This document shows, one piece after another, positions 14,066-32,151 of a DNA stretch of 64,000 nucleotides (positions are counted from its first letter, which is position 1; each line of letters starts with the position of its first letter). The notes beneath the pieces were generated by a model. The model saw nothing but the letters and a program-made list of their open reading frames with translations. It was not told where the DNA came from and made no database searches. This DNA comes from Bacteroidia bacterium (GTDB lineage: Bacteria > Bacteroidota > Bacteroidia > 2-12-FULL-35-15): assembly GCA_030654175.1 (NCBI GenBank), contig JAURXZ010000013.1:62001-126000 (forward strand). The letters run 5' to 3'. The position numbers were made by a program, and so were the translations under genes.

Positions 14066-15733
<1,668 letters not shown>

Positions 15734-15819
15734 TTATTTTTTTTATTACTTCGACTAATTCGGGCTTTTATCGGATAAGGAATTCGTTATTCGATGAAAT
15801 TCGTTATTCGTTGTTATAC

Positions 15820-16122
15820 TTATACTATTGCGAAAATATCTGTTTCACGCATGATCAGGTAATCTTTTCCTTCTAATTGAACTTCTGTACCTGCATACTT
15901 ACCGTATAATACAGTATCACCCACTTTTACAGACGGTTTGTTACCTTTTTCATCAATATCACTTACTGCAATCACTTTTCCTCTTTGAGGCTTCTCTTTT
16001 GCAGTATCAGGTATAATAATGCCACCTTTGGTTTTTTCTTCTGCCGCAGATGCTTCTACCACAACTCTGTTTTGACTTCCAGCAACGGGTTTGATACTTG
16101 CTTTCGTGTTTTCTTTTGCCAT
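15820..16122 (-). CDS. groES: Co-chaperonin GroES (Hsp10)
   Basis: 100 residues, the usual GroES length. It forms the heptameric lid of GroEL. The mobile loop region reads [23 protein letters not shown] and the core [15 protein letters not shown] and [10 protein letters not shown] are conserved. It is the first gene of the groES-groEL unit: a terminator at 16253-16291 separates it from secG, so the pair has its own promoter somewhere in 16123-16252, where I found no clear -33/-7 pair and no CIRCE element. Confidence 0.99.
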
Positions 16123-16252
16123 TTTCTTATGATTTTAAAGTTTAATTGATTTTTAGAATTTAAAATTTCGCTGTTCTCTTGTCAGTTATTATGCCAAATG
16201 AGTATCAATCCTCATTAAAGACAATTTTGCAGTCTTAGGATTAAAATCAAAC

Positions 16253-16291
16253 AAAAAATGTCAGAGCGTGGTGACACTCTGACATTTTTTT
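16253..16291 (-). terminator. Terminator after secG
   Basis: An A6 run, arm ATGTCAGAG (16258-16266), inner hairpin around GTG/CAC, arm CTCTGACAT (16277-16285) and a T7 run. Read on the minus strand, the hairpin lies about 21 bp past the secG stop and is followed by a U-run, so it ends the miaB/lptE/secG-side transcript before groES. Confidence 0.85.
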
Positions 16292-16311
16292 AATAAAATA
16301 TTTTAAATTCC

Positions 16312-16689
16312 CTATTTAGTGGGAGGTGCTGTATTTGTTGGAGGTACAGAAGTTGGTGCTGTAGTTGGTGCTGCCGTTGGCAAAGCCGTTGGTGCAGGTG
16401 TTTCTGTTCCTGCATTTTCGCTTTTTTGACGGGTAACAGATTCTGTTCCGGTTTCAGTGCCTTCAGAAGGATGGTTATAAGCAGTTGAAACCAAACATAA
16501 AGCCAATAATGAAACAGCCAGGGTCCATGTTGCTTTTTCTAAAAAATCACCAGTTTTGCGCACACCCATTACCTGATTAGATGAAGCGAAAGAGGAGGCC
16601 AATCCACCACCTTTAGAGTTTTGTACTAATACTACAAGTATTAAAAGTAAACAAACTATGATAATTAAAATTGAAATGACTGTTCCCAT
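16312..16689 (-). CDS. secG: Protein translocase subunit SecG
   Basis: 125 residues. Two membrane helices (about 3-24 and 52-71) flank the conserved cytoplasmic loop [21 protein letters not shown] and the FLEKATW segment. It is the small auxiliary subunit of the SecYEG channel in the inner membrane and helps SecA-driven export. Beyond residue 75 it carries an unusual Ala/Pro/Thr-rich tail ([18 protein letters not shown]), a disordered periplasmic or cytoplasmic extension not needed in the E. coli protein. The gene begins 2 bp after the stop of the TPR-protein gene, so the two are co-transcribed and probably translationally coupled. Confidence 0.95.
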
Positions 16690-16691
16690 GT

Positions 16692-18134
16692 TTATTGTTT
16701 TTGTTGGTTAATTAGTTTTCGTAAATTTTTAATTTGGGCTGCAAAGTAAAGCCTTTTTTCTGGATATTTCAAACGTAAATTTTCATAAGCCTTCAATGCC
16801 TTGATATAATTGCCCTGGAGCACGAATATTTTTGCCAAAGTTTCGCTTACAAAAGTAATATCTTCGGCCACACTTTGCTTGGCCATATTCACCGGATTGT
16901 AAAATTCGGTTTTTGGTTTCGACATTCGGGGCTCTTCACGCAAAAACTTGTCGATGAGATCTGCTGCGGTTTTTTTGCTGGAGCTTTCATCTAATTTGTT
17001 TTCTTCAACAGCCGGTTCGTTAACGTTTGATGCATGTTTCAGCCAGTCGGTAAATGAATGTGCCTGAGAATTGTCAAAGTTTTCGGTGATTGTAACTGTT
17101 GCTTCTGATTCAGCTTTTTCAATTTCAGGTGTTTCAATAGCTGCGCCAATTGCACTCTCAATCGGGGTATTAAGAACAAAATTTGCCCGAACAGGTGCTT
17201 GCTCATCTTTAAATTCAACCGGTCTTTCACTTTCGGTAAGCAGTTCTGTATTGGATACTTCCAGTTCTATAACTGAAATAGCGGCTTGTGCTAAAAATTC
17301 CTTTTCCAGTTCATCAATAATAACTTCTTCAGTATTCTCTATGGTATCATTGGTAACGATTTCTTCTTTGCCTGTGGTGATCGGAGCAGAGGTATCAACT
17401 TTTTCAATTACTTCTGCTATCGGTTCAATTGGCTTTTCTGTTAACTTTTCAATTATTACCGGAAGTTCAACAACAATTTCCTTTATTTGTTCTGTAAATT
17501 CAATACGCTCAGCAACAATAGCTTGTTCATCAACCGTGACCTCTGAAATAACTGTTTCTTCTTTTATTTGTATCTCGGCTTCAATTATTTCAGTGGTCGC
17601 TATTTCAGATGTTGTTTTAACGCTCTCAGCAGCAATGTTCTGTACTTCCTCTTTTTCAACAAACTGCTCAACTATGATATTTTTATATTCTTCAGCTATT
17701 TTGTGAGTTTCAGTTTCTTCTGTTATTTGTACTTCAGTTTCAGTTATTTCAGTGACCGTTGTTTCAGGTGTTGTTTGAACGGCCTTAGTAGTAATAGGCT
17801 GTTCAATTTCTTCTTTAACAAGTTGCTCAACTTTAATAATCTTATTTTCCTCTATAGTTTTGTGACTTTCAGAAATATTAACAATTTCAATCTTAGCTTC
17901 CGGTTTATTGGTGATCAAATAATGAAGCACTTTTCGGTCTGTTGCGTATGTTGCAGTTGTTTTTAGCTGTGTATTGTAATGAATACTATGCTCATTATGC
18001 AAGCTTTTAGCATATAATAAATGTGCAGTTTGAAAATAGGGGAAGCTTTTCAATAATTCAGCCAGCAAAATGCCATCATTTCCCGATAATTTATCGGGAT
18101 TGTCCATAAATGATATGAATTGATTACGATTCAT
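16692..18134 (-). CDS. Low-complexity protein with C-terminal TPR-like segment
   Basis: 480 residues; a Bacteroidota-type protein often found between lptE and secG. Residues 1-80 form a helical N-terminal domain ([20 protein letters not shown]). Residues about 90-340 are Glu/Thr/Val/Ile-rich and look disordered. Residues about 420-475 ([21 protein letters not shown]) look like one TPR pair. The middle contains a clean tandem duplication: residues 91-143 and 144-196 (53 residues each) are alignable, about 159 bp per copy at DNA level. No signal peptide or membrane segment, so cytoplasmic. The function is unknown; linkage to envelope genes suggests a role near the membrane, but that is only context. 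Confidence 0.8.
17547..17864 (-). repeat. 159-bp in-frame tandem duplication inside the TPR-protein gene
   Basis: Two consecutive 53-codon units (17706-17864 and 17547-17705). Landmarks repeat in order: H-K-x-x-E-E-x-K, V-E-Q-x-V-x-E-E, T-T-x-E, T-E-I-x-E-x-E-x-Q-I-x-E-E-T. The copies have diverged clearly, so the duplication is not recent. Confidence 0.75.
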
Positions 18135-18160
18135 TTTGGGGATTTCGGAATTTTGATTTT

Positions 18161-18199
18161 TGAACTTTAAACTTAGAACTTTAAACTTTAAACTTTTTT
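18161..18199. repeat. ACTTTAAA-type low-complexity spacer
   Basis: A run of GAACTTTAAACTT-like units fills most of the gap between lptE and the TPR-protein gene. Very similar runs lie at about 18744-18785 (upstream of lptE), 21864-21900 (just before topA) and, inverted, 36128-36156 (just after the ABC-F gene). They look like expanded simple repeats placed only at gene borders. Confidence 0.7.
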
Positions 18200-18203
18200 A
18201 GAT

Positions 18204-18728
18204 CTACCAATCATTTAAAGTTTTGTTAAAAATATCTTGTACCAATTGTTCATTAATATCTCTGATCAACTGATCTTCAACTGCTGCAAGACTCTGTGTA
18301 CTGGAATAATCAAAGAAGCGTGAAAACGTTTGTTCATAGTTTTTCTTTTCATCAAATGCACAGGTATATTTTACATTTACTGTAATTGTCAATCTGTTCA
18401 AAGCCGCTTGATCTGTGCTTTGTATGGCAATTGGTGAAGTCAGATAGCCAACTACGCTGCCTTCAAAAGCCAGGTCGCCACCTTTATTTACAAGTCCCAA
18501 ACGGGTTTGTGAGCTTAGCTTATCGCGCAAAGCTTCAGTAAATGTTTGGCTTAAAGTAGGTGGAGCAAGGGATGCGTTATTTTGAAAATATTCTACCGAA
18601 ACTGTTTTTGCTTCAGGTGGAACAGACGCTCCGCTAAACGAATAACTCATTTTGCAACCTGAGAATAGGATCAGGATACAAGAAACAAGACATAAGATTT
18701 GTTGTTTGTTCACAAAATGAAATTTCAT
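18204..18728 (-). CDS. lptE: LptE-type LPS-assembly lipoprotein
   Basis: 174 residues from the ATG at 18728; the frame can be extended to a TTG at 18746, but that start lies in the low-complexity repeat and is less likely. The signal peptide ends in LFSGC, a lipobox. The mature protein (SYSFSGASVPPEAKTVSVEYFQNN, then FTEALRDKLSSQTRLGLV) matches the Bacteroidota LptE family. LptE is the outer-membrane lipoprotein that plugs the LptD barrel and helps insert LPS. The order sigma-54 activator, lptE, TPR protein, secG on one strand with short gaps indicates an operon. Confidence 0.88.
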   Translation of the reverse strand: MKFHFVNKQQILCLVSCILILFSGCKMSYSFSGASVPPEAKTVSVEYFQNNASLAPPTLSQTFTEALRDKLSSQTRLGLVNKGGDLAFEGSVVGYLTSPIAIQSTDQAALNRLTITVNVKYTCAFDEKKNYEQTFSRFFDYSSTQSLAAVEDQLIRDINEQLVQDIFNKTLNDW

Positions 18729-18788
18729 ATTCTGTTTTTTGTTCAACTTTTAACTTTAAAACTTTAAACTTTCAAACTTTAAATTTTC

Positions 18789-20027
18789 TCACTTAATTGA
18801 GTATTCATTGATCTTACGATACAATGTCCTTTCAGAAATACCTAATTCTTTTGCTGCATTTTTGCGTTTGCCTTTATGTTTTGTCAACGCTTTTTTGATC
18901 ATGTCCTCTTCAATTTCATGCAGCGATAAATTTTCTTCCGTTACAATTGTGTGGAGAGGCGTTTCATCTTTCGACTTCATAAATGCTGGCGTAGATGTGT
19001 TGTATCCCAACTGTATAGGGGTTTCCGGAGTACCCACTTCCTGATATAATTTTTTAATTAAAGATGCATTTTCCGGATGAAAATCCTGATCAAGTTGATT
19101 GTCATTTTCAATCAGATCAACAACGATTTTTTTTAGATCCTGCAGATCTTTTTTCATATCAAATAATACTTTGTACAACAGATCACGTTCGCTGAAATCT
19201 CCACCCTGCGTTGTATTGCTTATTACCATTGGTAATTGGGAAGTAGTACGTTGCGGTAAGTACCCACGTATCATTTCGCCATTAATATCACGCTGCTTTT
19301 CGATCACAGAAATTTGTTCTGTAATATTTTTTAACTGACGTACATTTCCTTGCCAGTAATAATTGATCAGCAATTGCTCCGCCTCTGTATCCAGCTTTAT
19401 TGTTGGCATTCGGTATTTTGCGGAAAAGTCTGCTGCAAATTTCCGAAACAATAAAAATATATCTTGCTTGCGGTCACGTAATGAAGGAACTATGATTGGC
19501 ACCGTATTTAAACGGTAATACAGATCTTCACGAAACTTACCTTTTTCAATTGCTTGAGTGATGTTTACGTTAGTTGCTGCAACCACCCGCACATCCGTTT
19601 TCAATACTTTTGAAGAACCTACTTTGATGAACTCTCCGCTCTCTAAAATACGAAGCAGACGGGCTTGTGTTGCTAAAGGCATTTCAGCAACCTCATCTAA
19701 AAAAATCGTTCCGCCATTCGCTACTTCAAAATATCCTTTGCGTGCTTCATGTGCTCCGGTGAATGAACCTTTCTCATGTCCAAAAAGTTCTGAATCTATT
19801 GTACCTTCAGGGATCGCACCACAGTTTACAGCAATATACTGACCATGTTTGCGGGCACTTAAATTATGTATGATCTGTGGAAAAACTTCTTTTCCTGTAC
19901 CGCTTTCTCCTGTAATTAATACAGTTAGATCGGTTGGTGCCACTTGCTTTGCAATATCAATTGCTCTATCCAGCAAAGGCGAACTCCCGATAATTCCAAA
20001 ACGATTTTTTATTTCTTGTATGGTCAT
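18789..20027 (-). CDS. Sigma-54-dependent transcriptional activator without receiver domain
   Basis: 412 residues. The AAA+ domain starts almost at the N terminus: Walker A GESGTGKE (40-47), the sigma-54 contact loop GSFTGA (87-92), Walker B TIFLDE (Asp111-Glu112) and the sensor segment DVRVVAATN. The C terminus (about 372-412) is a Fis-type helix-turn-helix (KNAAKELGISERTLYRKI). There is no regulatory N-terminal domain, so activity is probably constitutive or controlled through the insert between the AAA+ and HTH parts (about 255-365). It should activate RpoN-dependent promoters. It sits 82 bp after miaB and upstream of lptE on the same strand. Confidence 0.95.
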   Translation of the reverse strand: MTIQEIKNRFGIIGSSPLLDRAIDIAKQVAPTDLTVLITGESGTGKEVFPQIIHNLSARKHGQYIAVNCGAIPEGTIDSELFGHEKGSFTGAHEARKGYFEVANGGTIFLDEVAEMPLATQARLLRILESGEFIKVGSSKVLKTDVRVVAATNVNITQAIEKGKFREDLYYRLNTVPIIVPSLRDRKQDIFLLFRKFAADFSAKYRMPTIKLDTEAEQLLINYYWQGNVRQLKNITEQISVIEKQRDINGEMIRGYLPQRTTSQLPMVISNTTQGGDFSERDLLYKVLFDMKKDLQDLKKIVVDLIENDNQLDQDFHPENASLIKKLYQEVGTPETPIQLGYNTSTPAFMKSKDETPLHTIVTEENLSLHEIEEDMIKKALTKHKGKRKNAAKELGISERTLYRKINEYSIK

Positions 20028-20109
20028 ATTCTACGAAAAATAGGTTTATTTAATTCAATTTTTCTCCGTGCAACTCTTTTTCCTCCGTGTACTCTGTGTT
20101 GAAAAAAAT

Positions 20110-21543
20110 CTACTTAACTACAACACCAATCAAAGTCGCACTCGTACAATCGGTCGCCAACACATTCACATAATCTCCCGGTTTAAAATTTTCTTTCGGA
20201 AACACAACAGTTGTATTTTGTGAATTTCTTCCGGATAATTCATTTGGAGATTTTTTTGATATTTTTTCAGCCAATACCCGGTGAATTTTCCCTACTCCTG
20301 ATTTGGTGCGTTCTCCCGAATGTTTTTGTTGCATATCCACGATCTCTTGCAGCCTGCGTTTTTTAACATCATCTGGCACATCATCTTTATATTTTCGCTC
20401 AGCAAGCGTTTTAGGACGTTCACTGTACGAAAACATATAAGCGAAATCATATTTCACCCATTCCATCAACGATAAAGTATCTTTATGCTCTTCTTCCGTT
20501 TCCGTGCAGAATCCGGTAATGGAATCAGTAGATATAGCACAATCCGGGATGATCCTGCGTATAGCATTGATACGTTCCATATACCATTCACGGGTATAAC
20601 CACGATTCATCATTTCTAAGATACGTGAGTTACCTGATTGAACAGGTAAATGAATATAATTGCAAATATTTTCATATTTATTAACCACATGCAAAACATC
20701 ATCATTCATATCTTTCGGATGTGAAGTGCTGAAACGAACTCGCAGATCAGGATCTATCATCGCTACTTTTTCCATTAACTGAGCAAACGTTGTAGCATTT
20801 TGTAATTCTTCAGCAGTAATGTTTTCTTTTTTTAATCCGCCACCACTCCACAAATATGAATCAACATTTTGTCCAAGCAGTGTAACTTCTCTATATCCTT
20901 CATTGAACAGGTCCTGCGCTTCTTTCACAATTGTTTCCGGATCGCGGCTTCTTTCACGACCACGTGTAAACGGTACCACACAAAATGCGCACATATTATC
21001 ACAACCTCTTGTAATGCTTATGAATGCTGTAACTCCGTTTGAATCCAAACGTACCGGAGCAATGTCGGCATATGTTTCTTCTTTTGAAAGAAGCACATTC
21101 ACTGCTTTTTGTCCGGTTTCAGCGATCTCGATCAGTTCAGGTAAACTGCGATAAGCATCAGGCCCAACTACAATATCCACTAATTTTTCTTCTTCTAAAA
21201 ATTTTGATTTTAAACGTTCTGCCATACAGCCCAATACACCAATAATCAGATCAGGATTGGTTTTCTTAACTTTTTTAAAATCTGTCAATCGCTTACGTAC
21301 ACGTTGTTCAGCGCCTTCGCGAATAGCGCAGGTGTTCACAAAGATCACATCCGCTTCAGTAAAATCTTTGGTAGTTGTAAATCCTTGATCATGCAATATA
21401 GAAGCAACAATTTCGCTATCCGAAAAATTCATCGCGCAACCGTAACTTTCCAAAAATAATTTTTTACCATTTGGAAGTATTGGTTTTTCAATCAAAAGCG
21501 CTTCACCTTGTTTACTTTCATCAATTATTTTATTCTCGCTCAT
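20110..21543 (-). CDS. miaB: tRNA-2-methylthio-N6-isopentenyladenosine synthase MiaB
   Basis: 477 residues. Radical-SAM enzyme that adds the methylthio group to isopentenyl-A37 of tRNAs reading codons that begin with U. The N-terminal UPF0004 domain carries the three auxiliary-cluster cysteines (Cys36, Cys72, Cys106). The radical-SAM motif is Cys181-x3-Cys185-x2-Cys188 ([10 protein letters not shown]), and a TRAM domain occupies the C terminus (about 410-477). It is the first gene of a minus-strand run leading through the sigma-54 activator to secG, behind a good promoter at 21592-21622. Cytoplasmic. Confidence 0.98.
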
Positions 21544-21907: not shown

Positions 21908-24349
21908 ATGAGCAGTAATTTAGTGATAGTGGAGTCCCCTGCAAAGGCGAAAACAATTGAAGGATTTTTAGGGGAAGGTTTTACAGTAAAATCAAGCTAT
22001 GGTCACGTTCGTGACCTTGCAAAAAAAGGGTTTGGAGTTGATATTGAAAATGATTTCACTCCTAATTATGAAATATCGCCCGATAAGGTCAAAGTGGTTG
22101 CAGAATTAAAAAAATTAGCAAAGGGAGCCGACACGGTTTGGTTAGCAACCGATGAGGATCGTGAGGGAGAGGCTATTTCATGGCACTTATTCGAATCCTT
22201 GAATCTGGATGAAAAAAAAACAAAACGTATTGTTTTTCATGAGATCACCAAAACAGCGATCAAAAATGCAATTGCCAATCCAAGAACAATTGATAAGCAT
22301 TTGGTAGATGCTCAACAGGCACGAAGAATATTGGACCGCTTGGTTGGTTTCGAACTTTCTCCGGTATTATGGAAAAAAATTCGTCCGTCCTTGTCTGCAG
22401 GCCGTGTTCAGTCAGTGGCTGTGCGTTTGATCGTGGATCGTGAACGTGATATAATGGGTTTTAAGAGCACATCTTCTTATAAAGTTACGGCAAATTTTAT
22501 TTCAGGTAATTCTCTTGTAAAAGCTGAACTTGGAACAAAATTTAAAACGCTGGACGAAGCTCGCGCTTTTTTGAAAAAATGTTCAAATGCCGATTTTATT
22601 ATCGATAGCGTTGAAACAAAACCTTCAAAAAAATCCCCTTCAGCACCGTTCACAACATCCACCTTACAGCAGGAAGCTAGTCGTAAACTTGGATTTTCAG
22701 TTGCTCAAACAATGGTTGTGGCACAACGATTATATGAAAGTGGAAATATTACATACATGAGAACTGATTCCGTGAATCTTTCTGATACCGCTATTAATCA
22801 GGCAAAAGAAGCGATCACAGGAAATTACGGAGCAAAATATTTGAATGTTCGTCAATATAAAACTAAATCAAAAGGCGCACAGGAGGCTCACGAAGCCATC
22901 CGTCCAACTTATATTGATAAGCCCACAATTACTGCCGATTCGGCTGATAAACGTTTGTATGAATTAATTTGGAAACGTACAATAGCTTCACAAATGAGCG
23001 ATGCGGAGTTAGAAAAAACTACTGCTGTTATTGCTGTTTCAGGTGCTACCGAAAAATTTATTGCACAAGGTGAAGTATTGAAATTTGATGGTTTCCTGAA
23101 AATATACATGGAAGGCACGGATGATGAAGATGAAGAAAATCAAGAAGGTATGTTGCCTCCAATGAAAGTTGGTGAAAAGCTAAATGCAAATGAGATCATT
23201 GCAATGGAGCGCTACACACATCATCCTGCACGTTATACCGAAGCCAGTTTAGTTAAAAAAATGGAGGAGCTTGGTATTGGTCGTCCATCAACATATGCAC
23301 CTACAATTTCAACAATTCAAAAACGTGAATACGTAGTAAAGGAAGATAGGGAAGGGGTTCAACGTAATTTTAATGTAGCTTCTTTGAAAGCCGGTAAAAT
23401 TACTGAGGAAGTGAGAACAGAAGGTACTGGCGCAGAAAAATCAAAATTATTCCCAACCGATATCGGAATGGTGGTGACTGATTTTTTATTAGCACAATTC
23501 CCTCAGATCATGGATTTCAACTTCACAGCCAAAGTGGAAGAAGAATTTGATGAAATTGCGGAAGGGAAAATTTCCTGGACAAAAATGTTGGGAGAATTTT
23601 ACAAACCATTTCATAAAAATGTTGTAGATACTTCCGAAAATTCAGAGCGTGCTTCCGGAGAACGGTTATTAGGCATCGACCCTGTTACAGGCAAAAATGT
23701 ATATGTACGTATCGGCCGTTTTGGCCCAATGGCGCAGCTTGGAGAAGGTAATGACGAAAACAACAAACCTAAATTTGCTGGCCTTCGTAAAGATCAGCGT
23801 ATTGATACCATTACCTTTGAGGAAGCAATGGATCTGTTCAAGTTACCACGAGTAGTTGGTGAGTTTGAAGACAAAGAGATGGTTGTTGCAATAGGCCGTT
23901 TCGGTCCTTATGTTCGTCACAACAGTGTTTTCGTTTCTTTGAAAAAGGAAGATGATCCAATGACAATTTCTTCTGACCGTGCCATCGAATTGATCTTGGC
24001 TAAACGCCAGGCTGAGATTGATAAATATATCAAATCATTCCCTGAAAATCCTGCAGTACAATTGCTAAACGGACGCTGGGGGCCATATCTGGTTATTGAT
24101 GGTAATAATTTTAAATTACCAAAAGGAACTGATCCTTTAGCATTAACATTGGAGGATTGCCTTGCTATTGCAGCAGATCCCAAAAATGCAAGTAAAGGCA
24201 ATCGTTTCAAGAAGAAAGTAATTGCGAAACCATTCAAACAAGCAGTAGCTAAAAAAGTTGCTCCTAAAAAGAGTGCTGCTAAAAAAGTAGCAGCAAAAAA
24301 AGCAGTTGTGAAAAAAGCAGTTGCAAAAAAAGTAGTTAAGAAAAACTAA
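21908..24349 (+). CDS. topA: DNA topoisomerase I
   Basis: 813 residues, type IA topoisomerase that relaxes negative supercoils. TOPRIM domain at the N terminus (LVIVESPAKAKTIEGFL, then TDEDREGEAISWH), active-site Tyr283 in ITYMRTDS, and the QQARRILDRLVGFELSP and LSAGRVQSVAVRL core segments. The C-terminal part (about 570-760) has repeated 'GRFGPY/RWGPY' units of the topoisomerase C-terminal repeat type and no Cys4 zinc fingers. It ends in a Lys/Ala-rich histone-H1-like tail (about 770-813) that probably binds DNA. Transcribed alone; repeat copy 2 lies about 110 bp after the stop. Confidence 0.98.
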   Translation: MSSNLVIVESPAKAKTIEGFLGEGFTVKSSYGHVRDLAKKGFGVDIENDFTPNYEISPDKVKVVAELKKLAKGADTVWLATDEDREGEAISWHLFESLNLDEKKTKRIVFHEITKTAIKNAIANPRTIDKHLVDAQQARRILDRLVGFELSPVLWKKIRPSLSAGRVQSVAVRLIVDRERDIMGFKSTSSYKVTANFISGNSLVKAELGTKFKTLDEARAFLKKCSNADFIIDSVETKPSKKSPSAPFTTSTLQQEASRKLGFSVAQTMVVAQRLYESGNITYMRTDSVNLSDTAINQAKEAITGNYGAKYLNVRQYKTKSKGAQEAHEAIRPTYIDKPTITADSADKRLYELIWKRTIASQMSDAELEKTTAVIAVSGATEKFIAQGEVLKFDGFLKIYMEGTDDEDEENQEGMLPPMKVGEKLNANEIIAMERYTHHPARYTEASLVKKMEELGIGRPSTYAPTISTIQKREYVVKEDREGVQRNFNVASLKAGKITEEVRTEGTGAEKSKLFPTDIGMVVTDFLLAQFPQIMDFNFTAKVEEEFDEIAEGKISWTKMLGEFYKPFHKNVVDTSENSERASGERLLGIDPVTGKNVYVRIGRFGPMAQLGEGNDENNKPKFAGLRKDQRIDTITFEEAMDLFKLPRVVGEFEDKEMVVAIGRFGPYVRHNSVFVSLKKEDDPMTISSDRAIELILAKRQAEIDKYIKSFPENPAVQLLNGRWGPYLVIDGNNFKLPKGTDPLALTLEDCLAIAADPKNASKGNRFKKKVIAKPFKQAVAKKVAPKKSAAKKVAAKKAVVKKAVAKKVVKKN

Positions 24350-24634: not shown

Positions 24635-25804
24635 ATGCAAGAATATTTCACACCCATTGATATTACTCAGTTTAACGGTGTTAGTCAGTATACCGATTCT
24701 TCGTATGCTAAAAGGATCAATGCATACCTTCAGGATACCGATTTCCCGGGTTTAGACAATGTGCATCTTGCTATTATTGGAGTTGAAGAAGATCGTAAAG
24801 CCTTGAACAACGAAGGTTGTGGACTAGCAGCTGATTATGTACGCGAAAATTTATATAAATTATTTCAAGGGAATTACTCAACTAAAATTGTTGATCTGGG
24901 GAATATAAAGAAGGGAAATACCATTGACGACAGCTATTTTGCCGTTACTGATGTGCTTTCTCAATTACTGAAAAAAAATATTATTCCGATTGTTATTGGT
25001 GGAGGTCAGGATTTAACGTATTGCAATTATGCAGCCTATAAAAGTCTTGAACAAACTATAAATATTGTTGCCATCGACTCTTGTTTCGATATTGGAGATG
25101 GCGACAAAGAACTCAATTCCCAAAGTTATCTGAGCAAAATAATATTACATAAGCCCAATATCCTTTTTAATTACAGCAATGTTGGCTACCAGACCTATTT
25201 TGTAGAACAGAATGCGATCGAACTAATGAATAAATTGTATTTCGACTCGCATCGCTTGGGCCAGGTTCGTGCAAATATGGAAAATGTAGAACCCATTGTG
25301 CGTAATGCTGACGTAGTAAGTTTTGATATTTCCTCCGTTCGCCAAAGTGACGCTCCCGGTAATGGTAATGCATCACCCAATGGATTTCATGGAGAAGAAG
25401 CTTGTCAGATCGCTAGGTACGCAGGTTTAAGTGATAAACTTTCTTCCATAGGTTTTTATGAAATCAATCCGGCATTTGATACCAATAAACAAACAGCGCA
25501 CCTTGTTGCGCAAATGATCTGGTATTTTATTGATGGTTTTTACAATCGAAAACAGGATTACCCGATTGTGGATAAATCGGAATACACAAAATACCGGGTA
25601 TCCATCAAGGACCATAATCACGAAATAGTTTTTTATAAAAGCAATAAAAGTGACCGCTGGTGGATGGATGTTCCCTATCCAATAAATCATCAGATAAAAT
25701 ATGAGCGGCATCATATGGTTCCATGTTCTTATACCGACTATGAAACAGCTTGCCAGGACGAAATGCCGGACAGGTGGTGGCAAACTTATCAGAAATTGGG
25801 CTGA
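24635..25804 (+). CDS. Arginase/formimidoylglutamase-fold protein with degenerate metal site
   Basis: 389 residues of the ureohydrolase (arginase/agmatinase/formimidoylglutamase) fold. The three metal-binding motifs are in the right order but altered. The usual GGGH is GGGQD (Gln125). The usual D-x-H-x-D is DSCFD (Asp148, Cys150, Asp152). The usual D-x-D is Asp231-Ile-Ser233 in SFDISS. Three of the six manganese ligands are therefore lost, so normal hydrolase activity is unlikely. The residue-by-residue reading is seen directly; loss of activity is inferred. The C-terminal 90 residues (DRWWMDVPYP, CSYTDYETACQDEMPDRWW) are extra and Trp/Tyr-rich. It directly precedes the porP/sprF-like gene and gldKLMN on the same strand (134-bp gap), a layout I recall from other Bacteroidota. 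Confidence 0.85.
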   Translation: MQEYFTPIDITQFNGVSQYTDSSYAKRINAYLQDTDFPGLDNVHLAIIGVEEDRKALNNEGCGLAADYVRENLYKLFQGNYSTKIVDLGNIKKGNTIDDSYFAVTDVLSQLLKKNIIPIVIGGGQDLTYCNYAAYKSLEQTINIVAIDSCFDIGDGDKELNSQSYLSKIILHKPNILFNYSNVGYQTYFVEQNAIELMNKLYFDSHRLGQVRANMENVEPIVRNADVVSFDISSVRQSDAPGNGNASPNGFHGEEACQIARYAGLSDKLSSIGFYEINPAFDTNKQTAHLVAQMIWYFIDGFYNRKQDYPIVDKSEYTKYRVSIKDHNHEIVFYKSNKSDRWWMDVPYPINHQIKYERHHMVPCSYTDYETACQDEMPDRWWQTYQKLG

Positions 25805-25938: not shown

Positions 25939-26895
25939 ATGAAAAAAAACATTACTACTGTCGTATTATTCATTACCGGATTAGTGTCCTTTGCCCAGCA
26001 AGATGCGCAATTCAGTATGAACATGTTCAACCGTTTAGCTGTTAATCCAGCTTATGCAGGTATGAATAAAGCACTTTGTGGTACGTTATTGTACCGTCAG
26101 CAATGGACAGCTTTCCCGGGAGCCCCTAAAACAGGCCTTTTGAGTGTTGATTTCGGTGAAGTTCTTTTTGGTGGTGTAGGTTTAACAGTTGATCAGGATC
26201 AATTAGGATTTGATAAAACGTTAAAGGCTAAGTTGGCATACTCGTTCCATTTGCCTGTAGGTCCGGGTACTTTAGGGATTGGTTTGGATGCAGGAATGAT
26301 ACAAAAACAAATAAAAGGTGATTTTATAGCACCTGATGGTACAACAACCACAGGTGGAGGTGGCACTGATCAAGCTATTCCTTGGTCGGGAACTTCTGCA
26401 ACTACTTATGATGTTGGATTTGGTTTGTATTATACAACCAACAGATTGTATGTAGGTTTATCATCTCTGCATTTACCTGAACAAACATTGGCGAAAACAG
26501 GATCTGGGTACGATTTCAATTATAAAGTTGCCCGTCACTATTATATTATGGCAGGTTATACATTCCAATTGGGGCAGCAGTTTGATTTAACTCCATCAGT
26601 ATTGGCGAAATCAGATGCATCTGCAACACAATTAGATTTGAATTTGATTGCTAAGTGGAATAAAATGATATTTGCCGGTTTCTCTTACCGTATAAGTGAT
26701 GCAATGGTTGCAATTGTTGGACTTGAAAAAAGTTTTACACCTAAAGTTACAGCAAAGTTTGGTTACTCTTATGATATAACCACTTCTACCATTAAAAACC
26801 ACAGCAGTGGTTCACATGAAATTATGTTAGGTTTCTGTTATAAAATAAAGGCAGAGGCTAAGCAAACAAGCCATATGAATGTGAGATTTTTATAA
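25939..26895 (+). CDS. PorP/SprF-family type IX secretion outer-membrane protein
   Basis: 318 residues. The signal peptide ends near VSFAQQ. The mature N terminus QFSMNMFNRLAVNPAYAG is the family signature. The rest is amphipathic beta-strand typical of a 14-stranded outer-membrane barrel. PorP is part of the T9SS in Porphyromonas; SprF of Flavobacterium is needed to deliver the adhesin SprB. Position directly upstream of gldK and the length fit the core PorP/SprF member. A TATATTTG box at 25815-25822 may be its -7 element. Spacing to gldK is 119 bp, consistent with an operon. Confidence 0.93.
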   Translation: MKKNITTVVLFITGLVSFAQQDAQFSMNMFNRLAVNPAYAGMNKALCGTLLYRQQWTAFPGAPKTGLLSVDFGEVLFGGVGLTVDQDQLGFDKTLKAKLAYSFHLPVGPGTLGIGLDAGMIQKQIKGDFIAPDGTTTTGGGGTDQAIPWSGTSATTYDVGFGLYYTTNRLYVGLSSLHLPEQTLAKTGSGYDFNYKVARHYYIMAGYTFQLGQQFDLTPSVLAKSDASATQLDLNLIAKWNKMIFAGFSYRISDAMVAIVGLEKSFTPKVTAKFGYSYDITTSTIKNHSSGSHEIMLGFCYKIKAEAKQTSHMNVRFL

Positions 26896-27014
26896 AAATT
26901 AATTTTTTTGTAACTTTTAATTATAAGTTTCGTTAGAGTACATCACTTTCCTTTTTTTATAATCATTTTTTTTTGATGATTTTCTGAAAAGGCGTTTAAA
27001 TTAAAACAACAAAC

Positions 27015-28457
27015 ATGAAAAAATTCATCTTGTTAGGTTCAATGGCTATTATTGCCGCTACAGGTTGTAAAAACAGCAGTAACGGAGAATTAATGGGGGT
27101 TCAGGGTCGTCCGGAATGGTTCGATGTTGATCCGTTTGGGATGTTGCACATTCCAATGGGCAGTTACAATATGGGACCTAGCGATGAGGATGCTCCTTAC
27201 GCTCATACCACAAAGTCAAAAACGGTTTCCGTTCAGGCTTTCTATATTGATCAAACAGAAATTTCCAATAACGAATATCGCCAGTTTGTTAACTGGGTGC
27301 AAGATTCTATAGCTCACCGTGCTTTATTTGAAAGTGGTGTTGCGGAACATGGAATCGAAACCGATGCTTATGAGCAACCAATTGAACCGCCATTAGTTAA
27401 TTGGGAAGAAGGTATCCAATATGGTGAACAGGATGTGAGAGAGGTTTTGGAATTTATGTATCTTCCTCCTGAAGAACGTTTCTACAGTCGTAGACAAATA
27501 GATCCACGTAAATTAAATTATGAATATTATTGGATCAATCTTCGGTTAGCTGCTATTAAATCTAATCGTTTCAGACCTGTAAAATCACCTGATGAAAAAA
27601 CAGGTTTGGATTTTATAAATGGATATCAGTCTACCAGTACCGGTGATAATAAAACATTAGGTCAATATAATGTAAAAGATGAAATCTCTGACGGTAGCGG
27701 GAAATACAGTGTTCGTGAGAGAAATGACAAAGACAGAAGTGTGTTCATTGTAAAGGATATTATAAATGTATACCCTGATACATTAGCTTGGGTTCATGAT
27801 TTCACTTATTCATTCAATGAGCCAATGACAAATATGTATTTTTGGCATCCGGCTTATGATGATTATCCAGTGGTAGGTGTTACCTGGAAACAAGCACGTG
27901 CATTTTGTGTTTGGAGGACTCAATTATTTAATTCTTACCTTTCTTATAATGGTCAGTCAATTGTAAATGATTTCCGTTTACCTACTGAGTCAGAATGGGA
28001 ATATGCTGCTCGTGGTGGAAATGCTTTAAGTCCTTATCCTTGGGGTGGTACTTATATTAGAAATGCTTTAGGTTGTTTCTTAGGTAATTTTAAACCAATG
28101 CGTGGAAGCTATATTGATGACGGAGGTTTCCATACTGTAAAGGTAGTATCGTATAATCCTAATGATTATGGTTTATATTGTATGGCAGGAAACGTTGCTG
28201 AATGGACAAGTAATGCATTTGATGAATCATCATATGATTTTTCACATGACTTAAATCCTGACTATGTATATGAAGCACAGGATAATGAGGCTAACGTGTT
28301 AAAACGTAAAGTTATTAGAGGTGGTTCATGGAAAGATATCGGTTTTTATCTTCAAACAAGTTCAAGAACTTACGAATACCAGGATACTGCAAAGTGCCAT
28401 ATTGGTTTCCGTTGTGTTCAAACTTATTTAGGACGTGCTAAAGGCGATGATATTTAA
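27015..28457 (+). CDS. gldK: Gliding motility / T9SS lipoprotein GldK
   Basis: 480 residues. Lipoprotein signal ending in IAATGC (Cys18), then the GldK-typical VQGRPEWFDVDPFGMLHIPMG. The body is a formylglycine-generating-enzyme-like (FGE-sulfatase) fold, with AFYIDQTEISNNEYRQFVNW, RLPTESEWEYAARGG, GNVAEWT and VIRGGSW. The paired catalytic cysteines of true FGE are absent from the last segment, so it is structural. In the T9SS, GldK (PorK) forms a large periplasmic ring with GldN under the outer membrane. First of gldK-L-M-N, 96 bp before gldL. Confidence 0.97.
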   Translation: MKKFILLGSMAIIAATGCKNSSNGELMGVQGRPEWFDVDPFGMLHIPMGSYNMGPSDEDAPYAHTTKSKTVSVQAFYIDQTEISNNEYRQFVNWVQDSIAHRALFESGVAEHGIETDAYEQPIEPPLVNWEEGIQYGEQDVREVLEFMYLPPEERFYSRRQIDPRKLNYEYYWINLRLAAIKSNRFRPVKSPDEKTGLDFINGYQSTSTGDNKTLGQYNVKDEISDGSGKYSVRERNDKDRSVFIVKDIINVYPDTLAWVHDFTYSFNEPMTNMYFWHPAYDDYPVVGVTWKQARAFCVWRTQLFNSYLSYNGQSIVNDFRLPTESEWEYAARGGNALSPYPWGGTYIRNALGCFLGNFKPMRGSYIDDGGFHTVKVVSYNPNDYGLYCMAGNVAEWTSNAFDESSYDFSHDLNPDYVYEAQDNEANVLKRKVIRGGSWKDIGFYLQTSSRTYEYQDTAKCHIGFRCVQTYLGRAKGDDI

Positions 28458-28553
28458 ACAATAAAACAATTTTAATATCGTTTCTATAATTCACAAGTCA
28501 ACAAGTATCAAATTATTAAAATAAACAATTATTAACTTTTAAAATTTAAAAAA

Positions 28554-29444
28554 ATGGCAGGTCTTATTGGTAGTAAAGGATGGAAAAATTTCATGGCCAA
28601 ATTGTATGGAATTGGAGCGGCAGTTGTAATTATGGGTGCGATGTTTAAAATTATGCACTGGCCGGGAGCTGGTCCAATGCTTGTTATTGGTTTATCTACC
28701 GAGGTTATCATTTTCGTTTTCTCTGCATTTGAGCCATTACATGAAGAAATAGATTGGTCATTGGTATATCCTGAATTAGCTGGTATGCATGGTCAGGAAA
28801 GTGAAATTTTAGGAGATAATCTAATCGAAGATAAAGGTTCCCTTACTGAACAACTTGATAATATGCTTGAAGAAGCTAAAATTGGTCCTGAACTCATTGC
28901 CAGTTTAGGTACAGGATTAAAGCAGTTAAGCGACCAAACAGGTAAATTAACTAACATTACTGATGCAGGTGTTGCATCTGGCGATTTTGCTGACAAAATG
29001 AAGTCAGCTTCTAAATCTGTTGGTAATTTTAATGAGTCTTATGATAAAGCAACCGGCAACATATTGTCTTCCGCTGATGAGTTATCCGGTTCTTATGACA
29101 AAGCAAAAAATGCTATTCAGTCTTCAACTGAAAAATTATCCCAATCAATGGATCATTTGACAAATTCCAATCAGGAATCTCATGTTGCTTATGATCAGGA
29201 AATTCAAAAAGTATCTAAAAACTTAGCTGCATTAAACGCTTCTTATGAATTGCAATTGCAGGGTTCAAGTGAGCATATTAAAACCACTTCCACTTTCCAG
29301 AATGGATTAGAAGATCTATTAAAAAATCTTAGCGAATCTGTTGATGATACAAGGAAGTATAAAGAACAAATTGCTCAGCTATCAGTTAATTTAGAATCCT
29401 TGAACACGGTATATGGTAACATGCTAAATGCAATGAGAAAATAA
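28554..29444 (+). CDS. gldL: T9SS motor protein GldL
   Basis: 296 residues. Two membrane helices near the N terminus (about 14-33 and 40-60), with the HWPGAGPML turn between them and Glu50 in the second helix (LSTEVIIFVF), the position of the conserved glutamate implicated in proton flow. The long cytoplasmic part (about 95-296) is helical with repeated N-x-S-Y-D-K-A stretches. GldL and GldM form the proton-motive-force-driven rotary motor that powers type IX secretion and gliding, in a 5:2 ratio in published structures. A strong hairpin follows the gene before gldM. Confidence 0.97.
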   Translation: MAGLIGSKGWKNFMAKLYGIGAAVVIMGAMFKIMHWPGAGPMLVIGLSTEVIIFVFSAFEPLHEEIDWSLVYPELAGMHGQESEILGDNLIEDKGSLTEQLDNMLEEAKIGPELIASLGTGLKQLSDQTGKLTNITDAGVASGDFADKMKSASKSVGNFNESYDKATGNILSSADELSGSYDKAKNAIQSSTEKLSQSMDHLTNSNQESHVAYDQEIQKVSKNLAALNASYELQLQGSSEHIKTTSTFQNGLEDLLKNLSESVDDTRKYKEQIAQLSVNLESLNTVYGNMLNAMRK

Positions 29445-29457
29445 AAGAGGCTCTCCC

Positions 29458-29574
29458 CTTAATCCCCTCTCCAAAGGAGAAGTGGGCAGGATGTAAAAAA
29501 AATAAATAACAATTAACAATGCCTTAAAACACCTATCTCACTTAATCCCCTCTCCATTGGAAGGGGATTAAGTG
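29458..29574 (+). repeat. Paired CTTAATCCCCTCTCC elements with strong hairpin between gldL and gldM
   Basis: The 159-bp gldL-gldM gap holds two copies of CTTAATCCCCTCTCC (29458-29472 and 29541-29555). The second lies in a long hairpin: 29539-29555 (CACTTAATCCCC..) pairs with 29559-29574 (..GGGGATTAAGTG), 16 bp with one bulged C and a 3-nt loop. There is no T-run, so it is not a standard terminator. It may set the end of a processed gldL mRNA or limit read-through to gldM. Confidence 0.8.
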
Positions 29575-29603
29575 GAGGCTTTAAGGTCTAATAATAGAAA
29601 ACT

Positions 29604-31223
29604 ATGTCAGGTGGAAAAGAAAGCCCGAGGCAAAAAATGATTGGTATGATGTATTTGGTGTTAACAGCTTTGTTGGCAATGAATATTTCAAAAGACGTCC
29701 TTCTTGCTTTTATTACTGTGGAACACGGATTAAATAATACAAACGAAAATTTCGATCAGAAAAATGATGTGTTATATGCCAAATTTGATAAAGCAATGGC
29801 AGAAAATAAAACTAAAACACAACCTTGGGCTGATAAAGCCTTTAAGGTAAGGGAAGAAGCTGATAAATTATGTAAGTTTATTGATGAGACTAAATCTGAG
29901 TTATACATTTTAGCCCAGCCCGAACTTACCAAAGCGATGGCTGATACTTTTCAGTTACACAGAGGGCAGGCGAATGATAATTATGATATCCCTACCAATT
30001 ATTTGATCGGGCCTGAAATCGCTACACCTACAGGTAAAGGTGTTGAAATAAAGAAAAAAATCCACGAATTTAGAACCATGGTAATGGACCTTGTTCCTGA
30101 AAAGGAGAAGGCCGGATTCAAAATGGGCTTGCATACAGATGATGTATTCGACCATCATGCTGAAAAGAATGTTCCCTGGGAAGTTTCTAACTTCGACCAT
30201 ACAACTATGGCTGCATGTATGTGTCTTTTAGCTGGTATCAAAAATGAAGTTAAAAATGCCGAAAGTGATATTGTTACTTTATTGTTGAGAGCAATTGATG
30301 CAGGTGATTTTAAATTTGACATCGTTACTGCAAAGGTAGTTGCACCTACAAGCTATATTGTGCTTGGTGAAGAATACACCGCTGATATATTTGTTGCTGC
30401 TTATAGTTCTACTAAGAATCCTGATATTTCTGTAGGAAATGTAGATACCACCTCTAAAGAATATCCGAAAATGATTGGTGTGGGCACTCCCGTGCCTGTT
30501 ACAGCTGGTTTGGGTAAATATACTGTAAAACCAACCTCAGAAGGAATGCAAACATGGGGAGGTATAATTGACGTAAAAGCACCGGATGGTAGCACTAAAT
30601 CATATCCTTTTTCATCTAGTTATATGGTTGCCCGTCCTTCTTTTGCTGTATCACCAACCAAAATGAACGTGTTTTACATTGGTGTTGCCAATCCTGTTTC
30701 AATTTCAGCAGCTGGCGTTGCTCCAACTAATGTGGTGGCTACTTTGACAGGTGATGGACGTATTGATAGTAAAGGGCAGGGTAATTATGAAGTATTTGTG
30801 AAATCCGGTGCCAAATGTGTTGTAAACGTTTCTGCTAAAGATCCAAGAACCAATTCAACAAAATCAATGGGACAAGGTTTGGAATTCCGTATTAAAAAAG
30901 TTCCAAGTCCCAATGCTAAATTTGCAGGTGTAATTGGTGATGGAGCGGTTACTAAAGGTGAACTTCAATCCGCTGGTGGTATATTTGCTGACTTATCTGA
31001 TTTCGTATTTGACTTAAAATTCCCCGTTACGGCTTGGACAATATCTATGAACGTTAATGGATTATTTATGGATGAGTCTGGAAAAGGACCAGGTCTTACA
31101 GCTGGAATGAAGGCTTTGCTTGCAAAAGCAAAAAAAGGATCCAAAATATTAATTGAGAATGTACACGTACAGGCTCCCGATGGTGATAGAAAAATTACCG
31201 GTTGCAACATTAAAATTAAGTAA
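29604..31223 (+). CDS. gldM: T9SS motor protein GldM
   Basis: 539 residues. One N-terminal membrane helix (about 11-30, MIGMMYLVLTALLAMNIS) preceded by SGGKESPRQ, with Arg9 matching the conserved arginine that pairs with the GldL glutamate. The large periplasmic part (about 35-539) consists of four stacked domains reaching to the GldK-GldN ring. Segments PTKMNVFYIGVANPVSISAAG and GAVTKGELQSAGG are typical. It forms the dimeric rotor shaft of the secretion motor. The gene sits 159 bp after gldL and 58 bp before gldN. Confidence 0.97.
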   Translation: MSGGKESPRQKMIGMMYLVLTALLAMNISKDVLLAFITVEHGLNNTNENFDQKNDVLYAKFDKAMAENKTKTQPWADKAFKVREEADKLCKFIDETKSELYILAQPELTKAMADTFQLHRGQANDNYDIPTNYLIGPEIATPTGKGVEIKKKIHEFRTMVMDLVPEKEKAGFKMGLHTDDVFDHHAEKNVPWEVSNFDHTTMAACMCLLAGIKNEVKNAESDIVTLLLRAIDAGDFKFDIVTAKVVAPTSYIVLGEEYTADIFVAAYSSTKNPDISVGNVDTTSKEYPKMIGVGTPVPVTAGLGKYTVKPTSEGMQTWGGIIDVKAPDGSTKSYPFSSSYMVARPSFAVSPTKMNVFYIGVANPVSISAAGVAPTNVVATLTGDGRIDSKGQGNYEVFVKSGAKCVVNVSAKDPRTNSTKSMGQGLEFRIKKVPSPNAKFAGVIGDGAVTKGELQSAGGIFADLSDFVFDLKFPVTAWTISMNVNGLFMDESGKGPGLTAGMKALLAKAKKGSKILIENVHVQAPDGDRKITGCNIKIK

Positions 31224-31281
31224 AAGATAAGTCCGTTTATAAATTGTTTAATCGTTTAATTGTTTTAAAAGGAGGCATATC

Positions 31282-32151
31282 ATGAAAAAATTGAAATTTA
31301 TTTTAGTGATGTTAATCGTTACTAATTTTACTTTTGATAGCAAGGCCCAAGATCCTGGTGTAATAAAGCCGCCAACATACCCTGATGGTATTTATACGAA
31401 GGAAAATTCGAATAGCAGAAGAGCGATTCCTTATCCATATTTGCGTGAAGCTGATGTGATGTGGAGCAAGCGCGTATGGCGTGTAATTGACCTTAAAGAA
31501 AAAATAAACCATCCTTTATATTATCCTACAGCTCCTTTAGCAGACAGAAAAAGTTTGTTTGATGTTCTTAAAGACGGAGCTATTAAAGAGGGAAGGGTTA
31601 AATGCTTTAGTCCGGTCGATGATGAATTCCGTATGGAGTTGACAAAAAGTGAAGTAGAAGGTTTACTTGTTAATTGGGATTCTACAAATCAAACAGAAGA
31701 TCCAAATAACCCCGGAACGATGATGACCTCTCCTTTAAAAAAGGAAACTACTTCGGAGGAGATCACGAAATACTGGATCAAAGAAGATTGGTTCTTTGAC
31801 AAACAGCGTTCCGTATTAGATGTTCGTATTATTGGACTTCAGGTTGTTATTGCAAAGAAAACAGAGAGTGGAGAAGATGCGGGTGGTGATAAGCCATTGT
31901 TTTGGGTTTATTTCCCAGAAATCAGATCGTTATTGGCCAATCAGGAAGTGTATATGAGACATAACGATTCAGAAAGAAGAACATTAGAAGATATATTTTG
32001 GAAGCGTATGTTTTCAAGCTATGTAATTAAAGAAACAAACGTTTATGACAGATATATTTCAGAATATACATCAGGGATAAATGCTTTATTTGAAGCAGAA
32101 AGAGTTAAAGAAGATATTTTTAAATTTGAACACGATTTGTGGCATTTCTAA
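31282..32151 (+). CDS. gldN: T9SS protein GldN
   Basis: 289 residues with a signal peptide ending near DSKAQ. The mature protein begins with a Pro-rich stretch and the family segments ADVMWSKRVWRVIDLKEKINHPLYYP, VDDEFRMELTKSEVEGL and ENQKxxxR-like DKQRSVLDVRIIG. GldN (PorN) forms the periplasmic ring complex with the lipoprotein GldK. Last gene of the gldKLMN cluster; a Shine-Dalgarno-like GGAGG lies about 12 bp before the ATG, and a strong terminator follows 60 bp after the stop. Confidence 0.97.
   Translation: MKKLKFILVMLIVTNFTFDSKAQDPGVIKPPTYPDGIYTKENSNSRRAIPYPYLREADVMWSKRVWRVIDLKEKINHPLYYPTAPLADRKSLFDVLKDGAIKEGRVKCFSPVDDEFRMELTKSEVEGLLVNWDSTNQTEDPNNPGTMMTSPLKKETTSEEITKYWIKEDWFFDKQRSVLDVRIIGLQVVIAKKTESGEDAGGDKPLFWVYFPEIRSLLANQEVYMRHNDSERRTLEDIFWKRMFSSYVIKETNVYDRYISEYTSGINALFEAERVKEDIFKFEHDLWHF

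Follow-up and report, generated by a model that had tools for sequence, protein, structure and literature searches.

The window (the whole stretch of DNA that was analysed, 64,000 nucleotides) contains a gene for a ligand-deficient protein of the ureohydrolase fold, which we named ARG. It is situated between topA and the genes of the core of the type IX secretion system (T9SS), namely a porP/sprF-like gene followed by gldKLMN. The features of the locus and of the ARG coding sequence are presented in Table 1.

Table 1. Features of the ARG locus. Positions are those of the window; residue and codon numbers are those of ARG.
Feature	Position	Strand	Basis or remark
miaB, tRNA thiotransferase, divergent from topA	20110..21543	-	identified by translation
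topA, DNA topoisomerase I	21908..24349	+	identified by translation and conserved place
ARG, ligand-deficient ureohydrolase-fold protein	24635..25804	+	389 aa, ATG start; single copy in genome
Codon 125, Gln, motif GGGQD, at the position of ligand His101 (site A)	25007..25009	+	alignment
Codons 148-152, DSCFD; Asp148 and Asp152 retained, Cys150 replacing the site-B ligand His126	25076..25090	+	
Codons 231-233, D-I-S; Asp231 retained, Ser233 replacing the site-B ligand Asp234	25325..25333	+	
C-terminal extension, residues 313-389, with W342, W343, C364, D368 and Y369	25571..25801	+	predicted compact
PorP/SprF family T9SS outer-membrane protein	25939..26895	+	domain match
gldK	27015..28457	+	TIGR03525, 568.6 bits
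gldL	28554..29444	+	domain match
gldM	29604..31223	+	domain match
gldN	31282..32151	+	domain match

As already noted in a preliminary description of this DNA, ARG lies directly upstream of the porP/sprF-like gene and gldKLMN, all of which (positions 25939-32151) are on the same strand; the gaps are 285 bp between topA and ARG and 134 bp between ARG and porP. The opposite strand carries, at positions 14066-21543, groEL, groES, secG-like and lptE-like genes, a gene for a sigma-54 regulator and the divergent miaB, an arrangement that is retained in many relatives. A second copy of GldM is encoded in the genome of the window at G000:C6:223697-224284 (- strand), away from the gldKLMN cluster, and tandem extra gldM or gldN genes were observed at the related loci L123, L223 and L216. 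A PADLOC search gave no match.

The sole Pfam domain of ARG is Arginase (PF00491; E 4e-26, 92.5 bits against a gathering score of 22). The AlphaFold2 model, generated with 20 relatives, shows an arginase fold with a pLDDT of 90 and a pTM of 0.92, in agreement with the earlier proposal that the fold is retained. The closest solved structure is the formiminoglutamase of T. cruzi (4mxr; Z 35.9, 1.8 A over 268 residues, 20% identity), and the second is the formimidoylglutamase of B. subtilis (3m1r; Z 34.0); the two cover residues 11-307. Compared with arginases, agmatinases and formiminoglutamases, the model gave Z scores of 27-36, which places ARG within the three-layer ureohydrolase fold. The best NCBIfam match was hutG (TIGR01227), whose curated cut-off of 229 bits is not reached by the 95.5 bits of ARG; naming by similarity would give formimidoylglutamase, a name to which the curated score lends no support. 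From the absence of a signal peptide, as judged by inspection, ARG is most likely cytoplasmic. Two more ureohydrolases (L001 and L002), both with six intact ligands, are encoded on other contigs of the same genome and belong to other subfamilies.

Metal ligands and the C-terminal extension

The binuclear centre of catalytic ureohydrolases is formed by six ligands, which are contributed by a His, an Asp-x-His-x-Asp motif and an Asp-x-Asp motif. Rat arginase, whose ligands we take to be His101, Asp124, His126, Asp128, Asp232 and Asp234, was used as the numbering reference. ARG retains D148, D152 and D231, which correspond to D124, D128 and D232 of rat arginase, and lacks the full ligand set of a binuclear ureohydrolase, as Q125, C150 and S233 replace the other three of the six. 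Alignment to H101, H126 and D234 of the rat enzyme locates these substitutions exactly at the residues given in the preliminary description.

The ligand deficiency is conserved across the class. Among 158 aligned orthologs none retains all six ligands; the B-site pair (His126 and Asp234, ligands of site B alone) is never present as a whole and is completely absent in 135, whereas both B-site ligands were found in all 20 sampled other ureohydrolases of the phylum, including the nearest ones found outside the class. Ligand loss in the family is thus far beyond chance. The A-site shell, consisting of Q, H or N at position 125 together with Asp148, Asp152 and Asp231, is complete in 135 of the 158 orthologs. 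At position 125 the residue is Q in 70%, H in 15% and N in 8% of them; columns 148, 152 and 231 belong to the top 12% in conservation, and column 150 lies at the 7th percentile, with R, K, H, Q, S and L observed besides Cys. A changed metal chemistry with Cys and Gln ligands had been suggested for this protein. Gln125 is the majority residue of the family, and Cys at position 150 is not conserved.

At least ten family-level lineages have also lost most of the A-site residues, and the protein persists in them (L083, L086-L092, L190, L199, L200, L203, L204 and L207-L209). The most degraded members are those of families f6 (L083-L087) and f4 (L088-L092). In f6 the ligand motifs can hardly be recognised any more, and some of the proteins are short. 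In f4 the three motif aspartates are replaced by Ser, Ser and Asn; topA is still located near ARG in these loci, and gldKLMN is not. Additionally, in L225 and L230, two otherwise intact ureohydrolases from classes of the phylum other than Bacteroidia, the His of motif 1 is replaced by Asn, as it is in the T. cruzi formiminoglutamase.

All orthologs have some 78 additional aa at the C-terminus, in which Trp and Cys residues are near-invariant; this extension is missing from active relatives, including the 20 sampled ureohydrolases of the phylum. Modelled alone, it is predicted to fold compactly, with four strands and two helices (pLDDT 88.8). A Pfam search with the extension alone returned nothing for the sequence of the window and one sub-threshold match in a relative, its profile reached E 0.29 at best against PDB sequences, and comparison of its model with solved structures (Foldseek, VIA-align) gave nothing above Z 4.5, a result that does not establish a new fold. 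The residues that are invariant or nearly so only in this family are F203, R207, G209, E219, P220, R223, C257, A263 and W296 in the core, all of them distant from the ligand motifs, and F333, W342, W343, C364, D368, Y369, A372 and P378 in the tail.

Distribution, phylogeny and gene order

The family profile matched in 366 of 395 Bacteroidia genomes, and a handful of the weakest matches may be other ureohydrolases. In a tree built by a quick method (LG+G4), 96 orthologs are located on one side of a branch and the 20 other ureohydrolases on the other side (SH-aLRT 100), the stem measuring 1.2 changes per site. The dN/dS ratio was 0.014-0.032 in the three pairs with measurable dS, all of them from lineages without gldK linkage, dS being saturated elsewhere. 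The ARG family is monophyletic, class-wide in Bacteroidia and under purifying selection. Family f2 is probably Sphingobacteriaceae, as judged from the clustering of Mucilaginibacter and Pedobacter loci with f2 in the tree.

The gene order topA-ARG-(porP)-gldKLMN was found in about 70 family-level groups across the class, a count composed of 18 groups established by locus inspection (that of the window included), 11 established by the coordinates of ARG and GldM, and 42 Bacteroidales families, one of them overlapping. The last figure corresponds to half of the 84 ARG-bearing Bacteroidales families; in these, GldM starts 3.3-4.3 kb past ARG on the same strand. The linkage to gldK thus reaches well past close relatives, and its restriction to them, which the preliminary description had named as a refutation, does not apply. 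Many families encode ARG elsewhere, away from gldKLMN, and the linked state requires at least six changes among 92 rows when placed on the tree, which fits an old arrangement that was lost several times.

In 76 of 159 loci the neighbour on the upstream side of ARG is topA, with a median gap of 28 bp (7 overlaps in 75), and the median distance from ARG to porP or gldK is 137 bp. The closer position of topA in relatives, like the class-wide occurrence of the family, the largely spared metal site and the family-specific extension, goes beyond what the preliminary description had seen. In order to have an unrelated-gene control for synteny, we used miaB. In 71 family-sampled loci the gld genes were located downstream of ARG in 19, topA was linked in 18 of those 19, and miaB was found within 6 kb in 11; in 45 close relatives topA was linked in 25, miaB in 20 and the gld genes in 9. 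Synteny alone is no proof of a common function, because miaB, which encodes a tRNA-modifying enzyme, and topA share the gldKLMN block. Scans for promoters and terminators in the topA-ARG and ARG-porP gaps returned about as many candidates as shuffled sequences did.

In 41 loci without gldK linkage, belonging to several families, a divergent gene for an SDR-type epimerase (~320 aa) was observed beside or near ARG, on its upstream side; these loci include L064, L065, L170, L184, L190, L199, L200, L202, L203, L207 and L208. This epimerase gene is a second old neighbour of ARG and the one that recurs among unlinked genomes. The other neighbours of unlinked ARG genes, named from their translated starts (nqrF-, pheS-, mutL- and ruvC-like genes and others), vary by lineage and indicate no pathway.

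Relationship of ARG to the type IX secretion system

In Bacteroidales, represented by one genome per family, ARG was present in 84 of 119 genomes. It was found in 82 GldM-positive genomes and missing from 25, and the corresponding numbers for GldM-negative genomes were 2 and 10 (Fisher p 7e-5, the families not being independent). The two GldM-negative carriers have SprA and probably have a T9SS, so that GldM or SprA is present in all 84 ARG-bearing genomes; in the six genomes checked that have neither GldM nor SprA, ARG was absent. These counts favour a tie between ARG and the T9SS. Together with the breadth of the gene order described above and the regular distance to GldM, they are the main points in favour of ARG being an accessory protein or regulator dedicated to the T9SS. 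It could, for instance, be a partner of the GldL-GldM motor on the cytoplasmic side, and its place beside gldKLMN would then serve co-expression.

Several observations argue against this possibility. About 27 of 111 T9SS-positive Bacteroidales families, as well as family f11, lack ARG, and the ARG-less genomes with GldM and a full-length SprA include G443, G492, G608, G388, G249 and G660; because of such SprA- and GldM-positive genomes, ARG cannot be said to be present wherever there is a T9SS, as a core component would be. Conversely, genomes G002 and G517 have no SprA (and G517 no GldM either) and contain an intact ARG; G002 retains GldM and GldK despite the absence of SprA. In the genus of G002, which belongs to f2, SprA is missing from 42 of 60 genomes, ARG was kept in both SprA-negative genomes tested, and loss of the T9SS seems to have occurred either several times or at an early stage. 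Between the ARG copies of G002 and G517, 34% of the residues are different, dN is 0.27 and dS is saturated, so that these copies have not decayed freely. The proposition that ARG occurs only where a T9SS exists was weakened by these two SprA-negative genomes of the f2 genus. Moreover, miaB and topA share the same block, and ARG, although the next gene upstream of the T9SS core in so many groups, is often encoded elsewhere and is unnamed among the components in the T9SS literature that we found.

The earlier suggestion that conserved placement would imply a role in T9SS assembly does not follow from the linkage, in view of topA and miaB in the block, the ARG-less T9SS lineages and the SprA-negative carriers. 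Direct complexes of ARG with GldK, GldN or PorP, which had been put forward for structure prediction, appear unlikely, since ARG shows no signal peptide and those proteins are periplasmic or belong to the outer membrane. We regard a dedicated T9SS accessory as possible and doubtful, and its more specific form, a cytoplasmic regulator of the T9SS motor that would use the old A site as a sensor for a metabolite or for one metal ion and act through GldL, as unlikely. A search of the open literature found no text linking ARG or its enzyme names to gldK or the T9SS and no ARG mutant data; no paper on the ARG family or its place beside gldK was found there, and one may be available elsewhere.

A putative binding protein derived from a ureohydrolase

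The explanation that we consider the best, and somewhat probable, is that ARG belongs to one old Bacteroidia family derived from formimidoylglutamase-like ureohydrolases, that it is a cytoplasmic protein which binds a partner and does not hydrolyse, and that ancestral gene order accounts for its place beside gldKLMN. On the stem branch of the Bacteroidia, the formimidoylglutamase-like ancestor would have given up the chemistry that depends on two manganese ions, and the C-terminal extension would have been gained. We infer that the soluble, cytoplasmic ARG would act by binding instead of hydrolysis, core and tail forming a fixed surface (R207, E219-P220, R223, W296, W342-W343 and C364) to which a partner, either a protein or a small molecule, would bind. 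MetCb of metformin hydrolase (PMC11271267) sets a precedent for an arginase-family binder that is free of metal. With its three Asp and a Gln, His or Asn, the A-site shell would probably keep one metal ion or a hydrogen-bond cluster in most lineages and would be dispensable in some. An accessory role at the T9SS motor would be possible and not required, the cytoplasmic tail of GldL being the main T9SS part that ARG could reach. It counts against ARG as a binder that a true mononuclear enzyme could equally have kept the A-site shell, and that the breadth of the gldKLMN linkage and the absence of ARG from T9SS-negative Bacteroidales are more readily expected of a component of the T9SS than of a neutral neighbour.

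The ureohydrolase superfamily works with a metal-bridging hydroxide, and an active mononuclear metalloenzyme, in which the A site would hold one metal and catalyse a changed reaction, would therefore need a new mechanism. Most of the A-site residues are also gone in the ten or more lineages mentioned above, which keep the protein. Such an enzyme would be in line with the A-site tetrad in 135 of 158 orthologs and an always broken B site, and with the T. cruzi formiminoglutamase, the nearest structure, which binds Mn despite an Asn at the corresponding residue of the first motif (PDB titles 4mxr and 4myn, N114H); on balance, we find it distinctly unlikely.

As a further alternative, ARG could be the pseudo-subunit in a pair whose active partner would be another ureohydrolase of the cell. 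The precedent for this is MetCb, the arginase-family subunit of metformin hydrolase, which has lost five of six ligands, has no bound metal and binds MetCa (PMC11271267). MetCb (8ryi, 8x3g) resembles ARG as an arginase-family protein with lost metal ligands, and the genome of the window offers two ligand-intact ureohydrolases as candidate partners. However, MetCb pairs with an adjacent active paralog, whereas ARG mostly keeps its A-site shell and has no adjacent second ureohydrolase in 159 loci (family profile, E 1e-6; a very distant one could escape), and L001 and L002 are neither on the contig of ARG nor in its subfamily. This pairing is highly improbable in our estimate, and both it and the mononuclear enzyme are less likely than a role at the GldL-GldM motor. 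An ordinary formimidoylglutamase (HutG) of histidine degradation, to which the best NCBIfam match and the best structures point, is hardly credible with a score far under the cut-off, three of six ligands gone, a class-wide pattern, and a branch of its own with a support of 100.

The binding protein that we favour is similar to HutG (4mxr, 3m1r; TIGR01227) in fold, over residues 11-307 (~20% identity), and in motif order, and it shares an amide residue at the first ligand position with the T. cruzi enzyme; unlike HutG, it has lost the B-site ligands, scores under the cut-off, carries the extension of ~78 aa and forms a separate branch. Ligand-deficient arginase-fold proteins are already known, MetCb being one and the arginase-like protein of Trypanosoma brucei another (PMC10820115; Hai et al. 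2015, also cited in PMC11271267). The latter belongs to one eukaryotic lineage, whereas ARG occurs in nearly a whole bacterial class; ARG has a tail domain. ARG stands out by its breadth, by the lopsided loss of its metal sites and by its tail.

Deep conservation of gene order near gldKLMN is weak evidence by itself, because topA and miaB share it. Lineages that have a T9SS without ARG, and others that have ARG without SprA, are natural controls. The pattern of one site broken everywhere, the other mostly spared and an invariant tail provides clear point changes to test. ARG is a protein under strong purifying selection in most of the class, is often encoded beside the core of a hallmark secretion machine, and invites a wrong enzyme name.
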